DNA from: Ectothiorhodospiraceae bacterium WFHF3C12
GTDB taxonomy: Bacteria > Pseudomonadota > Gammaproteobacteria > Nitrococcales > Nitrococcaceae
Assembly (NCBI GenBank): GCA_013519935.1
Contig: JACDUA010000049.1
Span: 1 to 35,279 of the forward strand
Reading direction: 5' to 3'
DNA: 35,279 nucleotides
Shown here: positions 9,522 through 35,279 of the stretch, in pieces
How the letters are laid out: each line of letters begins with the position of its first letter
Numbering within the stretch: position 1 is the first letter of the stretch
Made by a program: the position numbers and the translations under genes
The notes under the pieces: generated by a model
What the model was told of the DNA's origin: nothing
Seen by the model: the letters and a program-made list of their open reading frames with translations, nothing else
Databases searched by the model: none

Positions 9522-11288
9522 TCAGCTCACGCCCATCTCCGCAAGGGCCTCGGCCCGCAGGTCCTTGCGCAGGACCTTGCCCACTGGCGTCTTCGGCAGC
9601 TCGGTATCGCGGAATATGAACTGCTTGGGCACCTTGTAGTTGGTCAGGTACTCCTTGCAGTGCTTGCGCATGGTGTCCTCGGTGAGCTTCTCGTCCTGGG
9701 TCACCACGTAGGCCCGGACCGCCTCGCCGGTCTCGTCGTCCGGCACGCCGATGACGCCGACCTCCTGGACGCTGGGATGTTTCGCGATGACGTCCTCGAC
9801 CTCATTGGGATAGACGTTGAATCCGGACACGATGACCATGTCCTTCTTCCGGTCGACGATGTAGAAGAAGCCGTCCTCGTCCATCTTCGCGACGTCGCCG
9901 GTATGAAACCAGCCATCTTCCAGCGCCTCCTCGGTGGCATCGGGCCGGTTCCAGTAGCCTTTCATGACCTGCGGCCCCTTGACGATCAGCTCGCCGGGCT
10001 CGCCCACGGGCATGGGATTGCCCTCGTCGTCGACGATGCGCACGTAGGTGCTCGGGTAGGGAATGCCGATGCTCCCGATGCGGTTCTTGTCTCCCAACGG
10101 GTTGGTTGTCACGCCCGGTGAGGTCTCCGTGAGGCCGTAGGCCTGATAGATGGGATAGCCCACCACCTCCTGCCAGCGTTCGGCCACCGCCCGCTGGACC
10201 GCCGTCCCCCCGCCGATGCTGATCTCCAGGTTCTTCGGCGGATTCTCGCGGAACCACTCTTCATTGAGCAGCCCCTGAAAGAGGGTGTTCACGCCTGCGA
10301 AAAACGTGACATTGAACTGATCGAAGGCGGGCTTGAGGTTGGATACCGGCCTCGGCGAGGGAATCAGCACGTTGTGACCGCCAAGGGAAAAGAAGATGCC
10401 GGCCACGCCCATGGCGAAGATGTGGTACATGGGAAGCGCGGTGAGGGCAACGCGCTCATCGGGCATCTCGTCGCCGAGATTGTTCACCGACTGCGCCACG
10501 CTGGAAACCAGGTTGCGATGGGTGAGCATCGCGCCCTTGGACCGTCCGGTGGTGCCGCCGGTGTACTGCAGGGCCAGAATGTCGTCCAGCTCCACGTCCA
10601 GGCTGTCGAGGCTTTTGCCCGAGGAAAGGGCCTTGGCACCCAGGTCCAGGGCCTTGGGCAGCGCCATGGCGTCTACCGGGCACTTCGGTACCATCTTCTT
10701 GAGCTTCTGAACCGTTTTCACGATGAACCGCCGTGCCGCCGGGAAGAAGTCGGCGACGCTGGTGATCAGCACGGTTTCCACGCTGCTGTCGGGCAGCACC
10801 TTCGGCAGTTTGTCGGCGAACATGTCGATCATCACCAGCACCCGCGCGCCCGAGTCCGTGAGGGTGTGCTCGATCTCGGGAACGGTGTACAGCGGGTTGA
10901 TGTTGACGATGATGCAGCCCGCCTTGGCCGCGCCGAACAGGAAGACCGGATACGCCAGGCAGTTCGGGCTCTGGATGGCCACGCGTTCACCCTTTTCCAG
11001 CCCCAGGTGAAAGCGCAGATACGCCGCGAAGTGGTCCGACAACCGGTCCACCTCCTCGAAGGTCAGGGTCCCGGTCGTGCCCGTGGGCAGGCACGTGGTG
11101 AAAGCCGGCTGCCTGGCGTGCTCCCGCGCCGCTGTCCTGACCAACTCGCCGAAGCTGCCGTACTGGAGTGCCTCCAGGTCCGCGCTGCGATTCTCGTAGT
11201 GCTTGAGCCACGGCCGCGCGTCGTAGGCCTCGAAACCGGTCTTGGCTCCGGCGGACTCCTTCTGGTGTTCCTCGTTGGTCTCTGCCAT
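9522..11288 (-). CDS. fadD: Long-chain fatty acid-CoA ligase (second FadD)
   Basis: The 588-residue ANL-family enzyme forms long-chain acyl-CoA. The P-loop YTGGTTGRSKG is at 242-252, the A5 motif YGLTETSPG follows, then TGD and VDRKKDM. The catalytic lysine lies in TPVGKVLRKDL about 17 residues from the C-terminus. An N-terminal stretch of about 40 residues (including WLKHYENRSADLEALQY) precedes the core, as in the common E. coli-type FadD, so this is the more canonical of the two FadD proteins here. AGGAGGAA precedes the ATG. An AraC-family gene lies 257 bp upstream on the same strand. A T-tailed hairpin follows the stop. Confidence 0.95.
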   Translation of the reverse strand: MAETNEEHQKESAGAKTGFEAYDARPWLKHYENRSADLEALQYGSFGELVRTAAREHARQPAFTTCLPTGTTGTLTFEEVDRLSDHFAAYLRFHLGLEKGERVAIQSPNCLAYPVFLFGAAKAGCIIVNINPLYTVPEIEHTLTDSGARVLVMIDMFADKLPKVLPDSSVETVLITSVADFFPAARRFIVKTVQKLKKMVPKCPVDAMALPKALDLGAKALSSGKSLDSLDVELDDILALQYTGGTTGRSKGAMLTHRNLVSSVAQSVNNLGDEMPDERVALTALPMYHIFAMGVAGIFFSLGGHNVLIPSPRPVSNLKPAFDQFNVTFFAGVNTLFQGLLNEEWFRENPPKNLEISIGGGTAVQRAVAERWQEVVGYPIYQAYGLTETSPGVTTNPLGDKNRIGSIGIPYPSTYVRIVDDEGNPMPVGEPGELIVKGPQVMKGYWNRPDATEEALEDGWFHTGDVAKMDEDGFFYIVDRKKDMVIVSGFNVYPNEVEDVIAKHPSVQEVGVIGVPDDETGEAVRAYVVTQDEKLTEDTMRKHCKEYLTNYKVPKQFIFRDTELPKTPVGKVLRKDLRAEALAEMGVS

Positions 11289-11545
11289 GACTTATTCCTC
11301 CTCAGTGCCGGGTTTCTGCCCGGTGATCGCTTATCTCGCGGGCCATAGCCACCCGCTGTTCTTATTGCCCGGGGTGCCGGCTTCGGCCGTGCCCCGGCAT
11401 GACTGTCTGCTTGAGACGACAATATGCCACAGACACGCCTGTTGGTAAGGGGCAAGGAGAACAAGGCGTGCCGGGACGCGCCGAGCTCCCCGGCCGCCGG
11501 CGGCCCAGCGTGCCTCGAGAGCGAATTCCCGGGGATCAGGCCAGG

Positions 11546-12439
11546 TCAGCGAACCGCGGCGCGTCGGTCAGGCGGTGTTTCGCGTTCGCCGCGTCGGCCT
11601 CCGTCGGGGCGTGGCGCCGAATCCGCGCCGCGGTGACGCGGTGTTCCCAGGCGATGTTCATATCGGGCTGTGCGCACCTGCAGCGACCCGTCGAAGCGCA
11701 CCACGCTCGTCGGTTTGACTCCGAAAACCCGGCGAAAGGTCCGGCTGTAGTGGGCCAGATCCGAGAATCCGGCCGCCGAGGCGATATCGGTGAGGCTCTG
11801 GGTCCGCGTGGCGAGCGTGGTGGACTGGATGACGCGGATCCAAAGGCGCTGGCGCCGAAAGGTGGCACCGGTTTCCTCCTTGAACAGGTGCACCAGCCGG
11901 CTCGGCGAGAGGCAGACCCGTCGGGCGACGTGCTCCAGGCTCAGGTTGCCGGCGTCTTCCGCGCGCAGCGCGGCCAGCGCCTGGGCAATGCGGGGGTCTG
12001 GCTCCCGTCCCGGTGCGCGGGCGAGGATGGCTTCGAAGCGCTCCTGAACGTGGGAGAAGGCCGGTGCGCGGTCGTAGATCTCCCGCATCAGCGCACCCAT
12101 CTCTTCGGCGCATGGTACGCCGTCCGGAATAAGGCGGGCCGGCTGTTGGCCCAGGCAGGCGTAGTAGGCCGGGTGCTCGGCGCTGAGGAACGCGAAGGCC
12201 ATGGGCCGGCGGTTGGCGCGAATGACCGGCCCCTGGGCTTCCGGGGGCACCAGCAGGTTCCAGTAGCGCCGGGCTTCGCCTGTCTCCGGTTCCCGGATAT
12301 TGAGCGGCTCGTCCAGCCCGAAGCAGCAGGACGGAATCGGGTGCCGGTGGTGGTCGACATCCGGCAGGTTCCCCAGGACGATCAACCACCGTTCCCCCGC
12401 GTAGACGAGTCGTTTGTATTCGCGTTGTTGTTGGCTCAT
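11546..12439 (-). CDS. AraC family transcriptional regulator
   Basis: The 297-residue protein has an N-terminal sensor region (about 1-150, with a cupin-like start containing HHRHP) and a C-terminal AraC/XylS double helix-turn-helix. The first helix pair covers about 166-190 (LSLEHVARRVCLSPSRLVHLF). The second covers about 216-247 (SLTDIASAAGFSDLAHYSRTF, then FGVKPTS). About 48 Arg/Pro-rich residues follow the HTH, longer than usual. GGGGGAGGAG precedes the ATG. The gene lies between the EAL gene and fadD on the same strand, so regulation of fadD is plausible. The effector is unknown. Confidence 0.88.
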   Translation of the reverse strand: MSQQQREYKRLVYAGERWLIVLGNLPDVDHHRHPIPSCCFGLDEPLNIREPETGEARRYWNLLVPPEAQGPVIRANRRPMAFAFLSAEHPAYYACLGQQPARLIPDGVPCAEEMGALMREIYDRAPAFSHVQERFEAILARAPGREPDPRIAQALAALRAEDAGNLSLEHVARRVCLSPSRLVHLFKEETGATFRRQRLWIRVIQSTTLATRTQSLTDIASAAGFSDLAHYSRTFRRVFGVKPTSVVRFDGSLQVRTARYEHRLGTPRHRGADSAPRPDGGRRGERETPPDRRAAVR

Positions 12440-12720
12440 CCCTGGGTCTCCTCCCCCTCATTGGGACGCGACGGCGCAGCGGTACCGCGCCGTGCGCTCT
12501 TCCTGTCACGGTGGTTCAGGCGCCAATGCCGCCGCTTCCCGCGACGGCCCGGCTGTTCCAAGTGCCCGCTTGTCTTTGGCGTGGGCCCGGAGGGGACGCC
12601 TCCAGTTGACTATTGCGCTTTTCTTATTCTCTTGACGTTACGGTATTGGTTCACGAGGTACTTGAATGAACTGGCTGGGGTTGGTGGGACCCACAAGCGC
12701 TGCTCCCGCGCCGGCGATGC

Positions 12721-14796
12721 CTAGCCCCCTGCGCCGCTCGCCCCGGGTTGGAACGCGCCGCGGCGCAGCATCTTGACGATCTCGGCGGCGGGCGCGGGCC
12801 GGGAGAACAGGAAACCCTGGGCCTCCTGGCAACCCAGCTCCCGGACGAAGCGGAGCTGTTCCCCGGTCTCCACGCCCTCGGCCACCGTGCCGATGCCCAG
12901 GCTCCTGGCCAGCTGGATGGTCGCCTCGATGATGCGCGCCTCGTTGCTCTCGGTGCTGGCCGCGTCGTCGATGGCCATGACGAAGGACTTGTCCACCTTC
13001 AGGTGGGTCGGCTCGAGCAGGCGTAGCTGGGCCAGCGACGAGTAGCCGGTGCCGAAATCGTCGATGGCGAGATGCACGCCCATGGCGCGCAGGCGCCTTA
13101 ACGCCTGGATGCCGGACTCGCCGGACAGCGCCGTGCTCTCCGTCACCTCGAGCTCCAGCATTCGCGGTGGCAGGCCCCAGCGCTGCAGTGCCGACTCGAC
13201 CTGGGCGACGAAGTCGTCACGCTCGAGCTCCCGCGTTGACAGATTCACCGACACGCGCACGTCGTAGCCGAGGTCGCGCCAGCGCCGGCACTGCTGACAG
13301 GCCTGTTCCATGACCCAGGCGTCGAGGCGATGTATCAGCCCCGTATGTTCGGCCAGCGGTATGAAGCGGTCCGGCGGGATCATGCCGAGCCGGGGATGCG
13401 GCCAGCGCACCAGCGCCTCGAAGCCCGCAACGTCCCCGGTAACCAGGTTGATGCGGGGCTGGTAGTGAACCGCCAGCTGCTCCCTGTCCAGGGCCTCTAT
13501 CAGGTGCTTTTCCAGCGCCACCCGGTCACGGACGTAGCGTTCCACTTCCGGGGAGAAGCACTCCATTGTGCTGCGTCGCTCCTTGGCATCGTTGAGTGCC
13601 AGGTCCGCGCGCTGCAAGAGCTCCGGCAGGCGTGTGCCGTGGGCGGGATACTCGGCCAGGCCGGCGCGCGCCCCGACGCGAACCTGGTGCTCGCCCAGGC
13701 GGTGGGGTCTCTCGATGGCAGCGATGATCCGGTGGGCGGCGGCGCTGAAATCGCTGTCCCTGGAACCGGGCATGACCACCGCGAACTGGTCATTGCCCAG
13801 CCGCGCCGTCACCGCGTCCGCGGGCGCGGCCGAGCCCAGGCGTTCGGCCACGCTGGCGAGCAGCTCGTCGCCCACGGCGTGGCCCAGGGTGTCGTTGATT
13901 TCCCGGAAGCGTTCCAGATCCAGTTGCATGACGGCCATGCCCCGGTCCGAGGCGGCCGCGTGCCTCAGTAGCTCACCCGCGGCGCTCATGAGCCTCCGGC
14001 GGTTGGGCAGGCCGGTGAGACTGTCGAAGAAGGCAAGCCGCTCCACCTCGCTGGCGTGTCGCTGGCGTTCCGTGACGTCCACCACCATGCCGAACAGCGC
14101 GGGTTCTCCCTCGTGCCGCGCCGAGCATGCCAGGACCTCGATGATGATCTCGTTGCCGTCCCTGCGCACGGCGTGGTAGATGACGGATTCCTCGGCGGGG
14201 GTCCCGGCCATGCGCTCGGCGATCTTTTGATGCAGCTTCGGCCGCTCGTCCTCGCGCACGAGCTGCTCGACGCTAATGTCCTCGCTCAGCTCCCGCGCGC
14301 TGTAGCCGAGCATCCGTGTCAAACGGGGATTGGCGTAGACGAGGTGGGGCCCCTGGGCGATGAAGACGCCGACCAGCGACTGCTCCACCAGGGCGCGAAA
14401 CATGGCCTCGCGTTCGACGAGCCTGTCTTCGGCCCGTTTTTGGCGGGAGACCTCTCTGAACGTCGCCAGAAAACGTGCCGGCTCCGCCGCCTCGCCGGTC
14501 AATGGCTCGATATCGCAGGCGATCCAGAGCGTGTCGTCGCCCGCGCGCCGTCGTTGTATGAGCACCGTGGCCGGTTCACGCCGTTCCACGGCGCGCGCTG
14601 GTGAAGGGCCTTCGCACTCGCCGCAGGCCGCGATGACGTCAGCCAGGGATTGTCCCGGAGTCCTTTCCCGTGGAAACCCGGCCAGCTCCGAAAGAGCGCG
14701 GTTGCACCATAGAATGAGCCCTTCGGTATCGGCTATGGCGATGCCGTTGCCGGTCAGGTTGGCCACCCGCGCCAGGAGATGCGGCTCGTCATTCAT
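12721..14796 (-). CDS. PAS-PAS-GGDEF-EAL cyclic-di-GMP phosphodiesterase
   Basis: The 691-residue cytoplasmic protein has two PAS domains (about 5-115 and 128-245), a GGDEF domain (about 255-415) and an EAL domain (about 430-682). The GGDEF signature is degenerate, reading GNDQF at 334-338, so cyclase activity is unlikely. The EAL domain has the full catalytic set: E460 (EALVRW), N518 (SVNLS), E550 (LEVTES), D579-D580 in [10 protein letters not shown]603 (VDKSF) and E640/E643 (VAEGVET). It should therefore hydrolyse c-di-GMP to pGpG, with the PAS and GGDEF parts sensing signals or GTP. The ATG at 14796 fits the start of the first PAS. It has no Shine-Dalgarno site of its own but overlaps the stop of a 22-codon upstream ORF. 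Confidence 0.9.
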
Positions 14797-31372: not shown

Positions 31373-33073
31373 TTACTCGATGCCCAGGGTGGCCTCGGTC
31401 AGGCCCATGAACAGCCCGCCCCAGTAGCGGCCGCCGACCTCGATGGGCACTGACAGGTTGAACATAACCTCGCCCGTGTCGCGGAGATAGCTCTGCAGGC
31501 GGAAACGGCCCATGTGGGGTATCTCCCGGCTCTGGAAGAAACGCATGTGCCGGCTCCTGGCCAGGTCCACCTGGGGATCGCCGGTGGGCGGCTGTGAGAG
31601 CTCGCTGCGGTGGACGGCCACGTAGCCCTTGTTGTCCAGGGGCAGGCAGTACAGCGCCCCGTCGTTGGACGCAGCCCACTCGTCGATGAGGTGCTGGCAG
31701 GCCTGCTGGAACGGCTTCGCCCAGGGGGTGTCGTACTTCTGCGGCTCCGTGTCGGCGATGGGCTGGTGATTGCGGTCGAACATGTCCACGCCCTGGTCCA
31801 CCAGCCGTTGGATCTCCTGCTGGATCTGGTCGCGCCGGCTCTCGATGGTCTCCAGGGCGGACTCCAGGTGACCGCGGCCGATGCGGAACTGGCAGAGCTT
31901 GTGCAGGGCCTCGTCGGTGGACTCCAGCAGCTCGGCGGTGTTGTCGTTGGAGCGCTCCATGTCCCGCTTGATGCGCAAGCCCAGGTCCCGGATCTCGCCG
32001 CTGCGGCCGTGGATGTCGCGGTTGGTCACGGAGAGTTCTTCCACGGCGGAGCTGACCTGTAGCAGGTCGGCGTGGGTGGTCTCGAAGTCGTCCACCATGC
32101 GCCGGAACTGGCCGGAGGTCTGGTCCACGGTCTCCCGTGCCTGTTCGGAGCGGCCGATCATCTGCTCCGCACCCCCGATAGTACGGGAAACCACGTCGGT
32201 CATGGTCTCCAGCAGGCCGCCGATCTCGTCGGCCGAGCCGCGCACCTTCACCGCCAGCGTCCGCACTTCGTCGGCCACCACCGCGAAGCCGCGGCCCTGC
32301 TCTCCGGCCCGCGCAGCCTCGATGGCGGCGTTGAGAGCGAGCATGTTGGTCTGGGCGGCGAATCCCTGAACGGTCCCCAGAATGGCCTGGATATTGTCGG
32401 AGGTGCTCTCCAGCTGCTGAACCGTGCCGTGGAACTCCCGCATGCTCTCGCTGACTTCGCCAATCTGCTCGGCGGCCCGGGCCAGATCGGCGACGGATGC
32501 CTGGGCGGCCTCGAGATTGCGCGAATTCACCTCGGCCAGCGTGTTGGAGCGGCTGGACAGCTCCTCGATGGCCCGCGCGGTCTCCTCGCTGGCGTTGTAG
32601 ATGAGCTCGGAATACTCCTCCTGCTGGCCGGCGTCGCGCTGGGCCTCCTCCGCGGCCTTGCGGCCCTGGGCGGAGGTCAGTGTCACCTTGATGCTGTGCC
32701 GGCGCAGGTCTTCCAGAGCCGAGCGCAGACGCTCCATGAAACGGTTGAACAGAATGGCCGCCTCTCGCTCACGCCCGGAGGCGCTTGCCGGCAACTCCAC
32801 CGACAGGTCACCGGTCTCGTCCGCGGCCGTACGCAGGGCCTCGATGAGCCGGTCCGAGGACCCCGAGCCGCGCGTACCGCGCATCGTGGCCACAAGCGCC
32901 AGGCCGCACACCGTGAGCACGGCTGCCGCCGCGGTCATGACCGTGCCGCCGGTCCATGCCAGCAGCCCGCCGGTCAGAAGCTGCACGCCGGCGAGGGCGA
33001 GAAACCGCCAGTCCGGGCGTCCGCGCGCCGCCGGCATCTGTATCGTGGTTGCCCCTGAAGTCATAATCGCCAT
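31373..33073 (-). CDS. Methyl-accepting chemotaxis protein with C-terminal cytoplasmic sensor
   Basis: The 566-residue chemoreceptor has two closely spaced membrane helices (about 22-40 and 44-64) with almost no periplasmic loop. There is a cytoplasmic linker, and the signalling hairpin includes [22 protein letters not shown] distinct C-terminal domain covers about 420-566 ([10 protein letters not shown], then [31 protein letters not shown] and [10 protein letters not shown]). That domain looks like a Cache/PAS-like sensor seen at the C-terminus of some marine chemoreceptors. Input is therefore probably cytoplasmic. The ATG at 33073 is preferred over an upstream GTG at 33109 because GGCGGAA precedes it. 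A sigma-28 promoter lies about 70-95 bp upstream. Confidence 0.9.
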
Positions 33074-33139
33074 GGTGTTCCGCCGTAGTATCTCGTGGCC
33101 ACAGGGCACCGTTAACGGATGCCTTCGTTGTGTCTCGTT

Positions 33140-34161: not shown

Positions 34162-34202
34162 TGCGGACATGGTCCCCGCCCGGCTACAGCGGAGGTTGAG
34201 TC

Positions 34203-34742
34203 ATGTCCAGCGTGGAGCGGATGATCGACGATATCCTGCGTCGGGAAGGGGGCTTTTCGGAGCATCCGCTCGACCGCGGGGGCGCCACCAACTACGGCAT
34301 TACCCAGCGGACCCTGAGCCGTTATTTCGGCCGTGCCGCCACGGTCCGGGAAGTGCGCGAGCTGACCCCGGAACTCGCGCGGGATATCTACGAGCAGAAC
34401 TATTACCTGGGGCCGGGCATTCACCGGCTGCCGGACCTGGTCCAGCCATTCATCTTCGACAGCGCGGTCAACCATGGGCCGAGGCGGGCCATTCGATTTC
34501 TCCAGAATGTCTGTAACGACGCGGGGCTTGGCCCCGTGGACGTGGACGGGGCGGTCGGACCGCAGACCGTCGACGCGGCCAGACGCGCGGTGGAGGAAAT
34601 GGGGCCCGTGCTGCTCGCCGCGCTCATCGAGGAACGGCGCAACTTCTACCACCTGATCGTGCAGGCCGATCCGAGCCAGGAGGTTTTCCTCAGAGGCTGG
34701 CTGCGACGCGTGAAGGAGTTCGAGACGGAGGCGGTGGCGTGA
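34203..34742 (+). CDS. GH108-family N-acetylmuramidase (endolysin-like)
   Basis: The 179-residue enzyme should cleave peptidoglycan between MurNAc and GlcNAc. The GH108 signature ILRREGGFSEHPLDRGG is at the N-terminus with catalytic E15, followed by TNYGIT. A C-terminal PG_binding_3-like region (about 95-170, with DGAVGPQTVDAA) completes the family layout. There is no signal peptide, as in holin-dependent endolysins. GGAGG precedes the ATG. Its stop overlaps the start of the holin gene as TGATG. The pair is typical of prophages, gene transfer agents and holin-dependent secretion loci. Confidence 0.9.
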   Translation: MSSVERMIDDILRREGGFSEHPLDRGGATNYGITQRTLSRYFGRAATVREVRELTPELARDIYEQNYYLGPGIHRLPDLVQPFIFDSAVNHGPRRAIRFLQNVCNDAGLGPVDVDGAVGPQTVDAARRAVEEMGPVLLAALIEERRNFYHLIVQADPSQEVFLRGWLRRVKEFETEAVA

Positions 34743-35279
34743 TGAACGTGTTGAGCTGGATCTCCGGCATACTCAAGCCGGCCAAGGATCTCACCGAGGT
34801 GTTCGTGGAGAACCGCGAAGGGCGGGCGAAGCGCAAGCACGAGGAGACGCTGGCCGACAGCGACCTTAACGCGGCCGTGCTCAACCAGTTCGCCCAGGAG
34901 TTCGCCGCCCGCGAACGCCGTACCTGGTGGGATTCCGTCGTGGATGGACTCAATCGCCTGCCCCGGCCGCTTATCGCGCTCTCGCTGGTTGGTTTCTTCG
35001 CCGCGGCGCCGTTCTTCCCGGAGCGCATCATCCAGGTATCCCGGGCCTACGAGGTGATTCCCCCCGGTTTCTGGGCCCTGTTGAGCATCGTCATCGGCTT
35101 CTATTTCGGCGGCCGCATGCAGCTCAAGGCCCAGGACTTCCGCATGAAGGGCAGGGCGCTCGAGGCGGCGCGGGAGCTGACCCAGATCCGCGAGGAGTTC
35201 CGCTCCTTCGTCATGGCCGAGGAGCCGCCGGAGGAGACGACCTATCAGCGTGCGGTTGCAAACAGCGACGGCCGTCCGC
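34742..35279 (+). CDS. Three-TM-type holin, partial at window edge
   Basis: The frame is open from the ATG at 34742 through the window end, giving at least 179 residues without a stop. The product starts MNVLSWISGILKPAKDL and has a charged helical stretch (about 20-65) and at least two hydrophobic segments (about 76-93 PLIALSLVGFFAAAPFF, and 109-124 FWALLSIVIGFYFGGRM). The C-terminal part is charged. This fits the GTA-type 3TM holin family, the usual partner of GH108 muramidases. The start overlaps the muramidase stop (TGATG), indicating translational coupling. The 3' end is outside the window. Confidence 0.8.
   Translation, partial: MNVLSWISGILKPAKDLTEVFVENREGRAKRKHEETLADSDLNAAVLNQFAQEFAARERRTWWDSVVDGLNRLPRPLIALSLVGFFAAAPFFPERIIQVSRAYEVIPPGFWALLSIVIGFYFGGRMQLKAQDFRMKGRALEAARELTQIREEFRSFVMAEEPPEETTYQRAVANSDGRP

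Follow-up and report, generated by a model that had tools for sequence, protein, structure and literature searches.

A GH108 muramidase and a GTA-type holin as a putative phage-derived operon kept by gammaproteobacteria for opening their own wall

Lysis gene pairs that stand apart from phages are the exit route of gene transfer agents (GTAs) and of type 10 secretion systems, and the known ones serve identified partners. In Rhodobacter capsulatus, the RcGTA lysis genes rcc00555 and rcc00556 are described as separate from the RcGTA cluster; when rcc00555 is disrupted, intact particles reportedly stay within the cells (PMC8601537, PMC3423380). Type 10 systems are described as a holin and a hydrolase, with spanins as an optional component, lying mostly near their cargo (PMC9527704, PMC10109510, PMC10847048). 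Whether they lyse the cell is disputed, the system of Yersinia entomophaga being reported as lytic (PMC10847048) and that of Salmonella as non-lytic (PMC13284979, PMC10109510). Secretion of the Salmonella ChiA is reported to require the holin and the TtsA-like hydrolase of its operon, whose other members are two putative regulators, and the main text of that report makes no mention of a spanin (PMC10109510). As shown for TtsA, the muramidase fold considered here can become specialised for passage through the wall by way of its C-terminal domain (PMC6996933).

The window analysed here (35,279 bp) corresponds to the whole of contig C113, in an assembly of 168 contigs and 4.6 Mb, and it ends with a muramidase gene and a holin gene that overlap (Table 1). 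The muramidase scores 87.3 bits against PF05838 (cut-off 21.2) and 57.8 bits against PF09374 (cut-off 24.6), both GH108 domains exceeding the curated threshold, and the holin scores 58.3 bits against the GTA-type holin family PF11351 (cut-off 24.8). No hydrophobic N-terminal segment or signal peptide is evident by eye in the muramidase. The original prediction, a signal-less GH108 enzyme overlapping a GTA-type holin at TGATG, is thus confirmed by the Pfam scores and the reading of the junction; GTG 34739 is an in-frame alternative start for the holin. The contig ends within the holin frame, which is still open at that point, and the surroundings of the pair are readable on the left side only. 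Judged from its relatives, the window's holin probably lacks some 10-30 C-terminal residues. The last 150 bases of the window contain one 28-base stretch that recurs at 93% identity elsewhere in the genome and otherwise gave no match, so that the rightward extension suggested in the original prediction leads to no other contig.

Table 1. The gene pair in the window, by position, and the genes found beside the pair in relatives
Feature	Position	Strand	Basis
GGAGG, likely ribosome-binding site of the muramidase	34191..34195	+	Sequence reading; 7 bases before ATG
GH108 N-acetylmuramidase, 179 aa	34203..34742	+	PF05838, PF09374, alignment, AlphaFold model
Catalytic GH108 domain, residues 9-92	34227..34478	+	Pfam
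PG_binding_3 peptidoglycan domain, residues 95-170	34485..34712	+	Pfam
GGAGG within the muramidase gene, likely ribosome-binding site of the holin	34727..34731	+	Sequence reading; 10 bases before ATG
GTGATG junction	34739..34744	+	Muramidase stop TGA (34740-34742) and holin ATG (34742) have one base in common
GTA-type holin, no stop codon before the contig end	34742..35279	+	PF11351
Neighbours in L041: Kdo transferase, ThiC, DsbA-domain protein			Pfam
Neighbours in L042: UbiA, Abhydrolase_10			Pfam
Neighbours in L044: MCP, malate/lactate dehydrogenase, ammonium transporter			Pfam
Neighbours in L055: tRNA-queuosine mannosyltransferase, GAF-GGDEF protein			Pfam
Neighbour in L056: AraC-type regulator			Pfam
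Neighbours in L057: beta-propeller protein, CobS			Pfam
Neighbours in L058: SecDF (about 2 kb away), LysR-type regulator fragment, EAL fragment			Pfam

Housekeeping-type genes had been predicted to the left of the pair, and the four nearest genes do belong to ordinary Pfam families (a TIM-barrel isomerase-like protein, an MCP, an enoyl-CoA hydratase and a methyltransferase). We noticed no phage gene in the 34 kb before the pair, these four genes being read with Pfam and the remainder by eye from the list of open reading frames (ORFs). The isomerase gene is also present in relatives. Comparison with four stretches matched no other part of the window (in two of them the ORFs as picked lacked the isomerase itself), and no empty site could be demonstrated. 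We note that the same genome has a second, different PF11351 holin (G000 contig C133:23416-23802; L032 9353-9883, minus strand; 73.8 bits, phrog_3427); the 12.7-kb stretch L032 around it contains no GH108 gene like that of the pair.

Relatives of the pair were obtained with the holin as bait only, the muramidase having given 73 pattern matches in the genome collection and no confirmed one. The window's holin recruited four confirmed relatives, three of them gammaproteobacterial (L041, an unclassified MAG; L042, the Pseudomonadales MAG SP163; L044, Alteromonadaceae bacterium Bs31) and one alphaproteobacterial (L043, a Planktomarina MAG). A profile built from the holins of the window and the three gammaproteobacteria was then used to search 390 genomes from the order to which L044's genome belongs, and it found eight carriers: L041, L042, L044 and five more. 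A GH108 gene lies immediately upstream of the holin in all eight. In the nine loci formed by the window and these eight gammaproteobacterial relatives, a set that excludes L043, the junction is always TGATG or TAATG with a one-base overlap, and both genes have open frames (up to the contig end for the window's holin). With eight other genomes carrying the same unit of two genes, the pair is not a chance arrangement.

The distribution of the trait is rare and patchy. The pair is absent from the 53 other genomes of the window's own order, and in 58 other relatives we found no holin and three GH108 genes, all more distant. When 369 genomes were drawn evenly from the class, only the window's own genome came up, plus one weak match (20.7 bits) of another PF11351 type. 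Relatives of the L044 holin occur in 7 of 72,556 plasmid records, all from alphaproteobacterial genera. A Niveispirillum plasmid (L063 4932-5504) carries a holin of the family, with no muramidase, immediately after a ccdAB toxin-antitoxin pair. Paracoccus pantotrophus pPAN3, a 1.5-Mb replicon, has a holin-muramidase pair (L064 3810-7972) between the cytochrome c maturation genes ccmE and ccmF; among the papers listed by our literature search on a holin with ccmE/ccmF, none pointed to such a pair. In another gammaproteobacterium (G245), a lone PF11351 protein (L045 1270-1854) scores 25.0 bits, just above the Pfam cut-off, and its 3.3-kb stretch contains no GH108 gene.

The nine loci lie in eight distinct neighbourhoods, only L042 and L054 having theirs in common. 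Annotation covered the genes neighbouring the pair, which make up a part of each 20-kb stretch, with Pfam and, for ten genes, PHROGs. Among the Pfam-annotated neighbours of the eight relatives there is no phage gene on either side, and no head, packaging or tail gene adjoins the pair by Pfam or PHROGs. Of the ten genes compared with PHROGs, eight had no match; the other two belong to L056 and fall in regulator or unknown families. Pfam gave no family for several small neighbours in L058 (one adjoining the pair) or for a large L056 protein. The comparison of synteny across related genomes suggested by the original prediction found the same two-gene unit in eight genomes and seven further neighbourhoods, with no phage gene annotated and no prophage or GTA cluster seen directly downstream. 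Of the domesticated lysis or secretion module proposed there, the domestication is supported and secretion is a possible role.

Several other features of the neighbourhoods were considered. No tRNA attachment site lies near the pair, the nearest tRNA gene, a tRNA-Ser in L056, being about 3.8 kb off. Control by the SOS response through LexA found no support, the exact box CTGT-N8-ACAG being absent from the 400 bases upstream in all nine loci. A 175-residue ORF overlaps the holin stop in L054 (G656, 10195-10722). Pfam gives no match for it and nothing corresponds to it in the other seven relatives, so we discarded it as a third member of the unit; it is probably not a gene. In L056 (G574), the next large gene after the pair (10889-14074) encodes the protein without a Pfam family; in PADLOC it strongly matches the candidate defence protein HEAT-ARM_XIII (1269 bits), and a large WD40/HEAT protein comes after it. 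A reading of the pair itself as a defence system was rejected, neither the muramidase nor the holin having a PADLOC match.

In the muramidase, E15, D24 and T29 are invariant in all 13 homologues of the multiple alignment; we take them to be a lysozyme-like E/D/T triad, with the catalytic glutamate in the EGG motif. The AlphaFold model is confident (mean pLDDT 91.4), and its best match in the PDB is Brucella SagA (7dnp, TM 0.82), with further matches to Salmonella Sen1395 (6v3z), to TtsA (6v40) and to NMB1012. The holin model is poor (mean pLDDT 57) and unusable for structure search, and no related solved structure was found by sequence. Hydropathy shows two hydrophobic segments, one near residues 83-86 and one near residue 115 (numbered from GTG 34739), and two such segments are seen in all nine gammaproteobacterial holins, compared with the three transmembrane helices expected of a GTA-type holin of PF11351. 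The invariant stretches of the holin alignment are kept as far as the alphaproteobacterial copy and the copy in the viral contig L040.

Selection could be assessed in one species pair, L042 and L054, the only one close enough. The GH108 gene gave dN/dS of 0.056 and the holin, for which dS is saturated, pN/pS of 0.082. Five flanking genes gave dN/dS of 0.046-0.107 and pN/pS of 0.083-0.204, so the pair is in the same range or lower. Both genes are under strong purifying selection in these two genomes.

Reasoning from the sequences, we suggest that the pair is probably a lysis cassette of phage origin, retained by its gammaproteobacterial hosts as a free-standing operon of two genes for opening their own wall. 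In such a scheme, a host signal would cause the muramidase and the holin to be produced together, and the holin would gather in the inner membrane and then trigger. Triggering would let the folded muramidase enter the periplasm, where its cleavage of the glycan strands would open the wall and release something encoded elsewhere in the genome, whether periplasmic or cytoplasmic material. Controlled release through wall opening would be the most likely job of the pair. By analogy with described systems, the cells may survive, as in the type 10 secretion of Salmonella, or a few of them may lyse, as with that of Yersinia entomophaga and with RcGTA.

The alternative that survives best is a strict two-gene type 10 system, with which living cells would export a defined cargo across their wall and whose cargo would be encoded elsewhere on the chromosome; we regard this as possible, if somewhat unlikely. 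The muramidase shares its family and its fold with TtsA and Sen1395, and two genes may suffice for such a system because, in Salmonella, ChiA needs a holin and a TtsA-like hydrolase, with a spanin unmentioned in the main text (PMC10109510). A coarse hydropathy and lipobox scan for spanins, which the original prediction had suggested looking for, saw no spanin pair within 1.2 kb of the pair in the nine loci (left side only in the window, its right side being unreadable), although one L058 ORF contains a lipobox-like string. Spanin pairs often serve to recognise type 10 systems. With none seen, a Gram-negative cell would depend on factors in trans to lyse fully. Against a strict type 10 system stands the position of the known ones close to their cargo, whereas no cargo family recurs beside the pair in the nine loci, generic families aside, in a test that a locus-specific cargo would escape. 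No regulator recurs beside the pair in the nine loci either. An MCP gene lies close to the pair in the window (31373-33109) and in L044 (10748-11923), and one is present somewhere in the stretch examined in four of the nine loci; this recurrence is probably due to chance, since such genomes tend to carry many MCP genes. As no linked cargo was seen, we do not class it as a type 10 system.

The pair could also be the lysis cassette of an ordinary prophage, with the phage genes starting just past the contig end. This would agree with a contig that stops inside the holin, but we consider it improbable. Phages do have a related pair, since the viral contig L040 holds head and tail genes by PHROGs and L136 a terminase, and L040, L135 and L136 all hold closely similar pairs. 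Four viral loci recruited by the holin queries carry this holin type, which in three cases is directly preceded by a GH108 gene, and two GH108 genes from the window's relatives (L034, L035) look phage-like when their ORFs are read by eye. Holin queries with the proteins of the window and L044 gave no match in 50,697 phage records. The muramidase recruited 74 viral locus records, from 66 distinct contigs and with flanks of up to 10 or 4 kb, and none of them contains this holin type. The nine muramidases are mutually 57-87% identical, compared with 43-47% for the best viral sequence of each (blastp, at least 140 residues); the viral L006 is 48% identical to the window's enzyme in the multiple alignment. 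In the tree, the nine group together (support 88/88) and the eight of the other order form one group (91/91), with one long viral branch, L006, falling within the nine at an uncertain place. The prophage reading is opposed by the window's own genome, which has neither a Terminase_6N nor an HK97 capsid match, by the non-phage annotated neighbours in eight relatives and by the 34 kb to the left, where no phage gene was noticed.

The structural match to SagA raises a further alternative, in which the muramidase would be a wall-remodelling aid for a trans-envelope machine and the holin merely its exporter. Such a part has been suggested for SagA in Brucella, where it acts in type IV secretion, a role on which our literature search turned up nothing. 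The modelled likeness is consistent with such a function, but the nine loci show no repeated occurrence of a gene family for envelope machines near the pair, and we think this reading quite unlikely.

Release of a GTA or tailocin from a pair separate from the structural genes, as in R. capsulatus, is in our view very unlikely. It would agree with the naming of PF11351 for gene-transfer release and with the reported position of the RcGTA lysis pair outside its cluster (PMC8601537, PMC3423380). Three marker families were searched for: Terminase_6N, HK97 capsid and GTA_TIM, the last of which we take to be a gene family of RcGTA-like agents. Most of the carriers are draft genomes, G614 being a single 4.08-Mb contig. 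Terminase_6N is found in none of the nine carrier genomes (6 of 14 well-known control genomes were positive) and HK97 capsid in one, G442, on contig C12 with the pair on C13 (4 of 14 controls). GTA_TIM is absent from the five genomes searched (those of the window, L041, L042, L044 and the alphaproteobacterial L043), a Caulobacter control being positive. The three families thus do not indicate an RcGTA-like structural cluster in the carriers. Of course, tailocins require neither Terminase_6N nor an HK97 capsid, and unrelated or unmodelled particle proteins, or losses in draft gaps, are conceivable. The GTA fragment of the original prediction is therefore partly right, by descent, because the holin belongs to a GTA-type family; it fails as regards a partner, no GTA or phage packaging gene having been found in the carriers. 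The lysis relic offered in the same prediction, a decaying remnant of an old prophage that no longer serves a function, fits the patchy distribution but is barely credible, because all nine loci have open frames, the catalytic-site residues are invariant and purifying selection is strong in L042 and L054.

We therefore return to a host-kept operon for wall opening. More tentatively, the pairs may form a distinct gammaproteobacterial lineage of host-owned, cargo-less holin-muramidase operons that shares its ancestry with the GTA lysis pair and would serve as a general device for wall opening or release, acting on cargo in trans, in species that lack a GTA. Among the papers listed by our search of the literature on GTA-type or 3TM holins, on GH108 with a holin and on gammaproteobacterial GTA lysis cassettes, we did not find such a pair; those on GH108 with a holin concern phages and skin phage endolysins. 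If real, the lineage would be the missing link that joins type 10 secretion to the GTA lysis pairs. A pair that several bacteria keep with no partner seen nearby implies either that its partners act from afar or that wall opening is itself useful. It offers an easily deleted two-gene target in environmental bacteria such as strain Bs31, which belongs to a group rich in secreted enzymes.

Among described systems, the RcGTA lysis pair is like the window's in that a lysozyme-type endolysin and a holin are, as reported, paired away from the structural cluster, a likeness of gene arrangement. Unlike R. capsulatus, the carriers lack GTA_TIM (none of the four gammaproteobacterial genomes) and Terminase_6N. 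The NCBIfam family NF040573, 'holin-associated N-acetylmuramidase', has the same architecture of a GH108 muramidase adjoining a PF11351-type holin. Its cut-off of 240 bits is exceeded by the enzymes of Planktomarina L043 (277), Paracoccus L064 (345) and the viral contigs L040 (300) and L135 (330), whereas the four gammaproteobacterial enzymes compared score well below it (120 bits for the window; 114-125 for L042, L044 and L058). A C-terminal extension seen in the L043 and L040 enzymes is missing from these four. The GH108 'secretion activators' SagA of Brucella abortus and ZliS are likewise host-encoded and share the fold; neither is known to be coupled to a holin.

The type 10 systems (ChiWXYZ; TtsA; STM0015/STM0016-ChiA; YenLC) share with the pair a signal-less peptidoglycan hydrolase and a holin outside a phage, as judged from the annotated neighbours on both sides in the eight relatives and from the left side in the window. 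Two of their hydrolases belong to the same type as the window's muramidase: TtsA itself and, through the similarity to TtsA stated for it, STM0016. The pair differs in that no linked cargo, spanin pair or recurring regulator was seen and in its GTA-type holin. In descent, then, the pair comes from GTA or phage lysis stock, and its working mode would most resemble that of a two-gene type 10 system.
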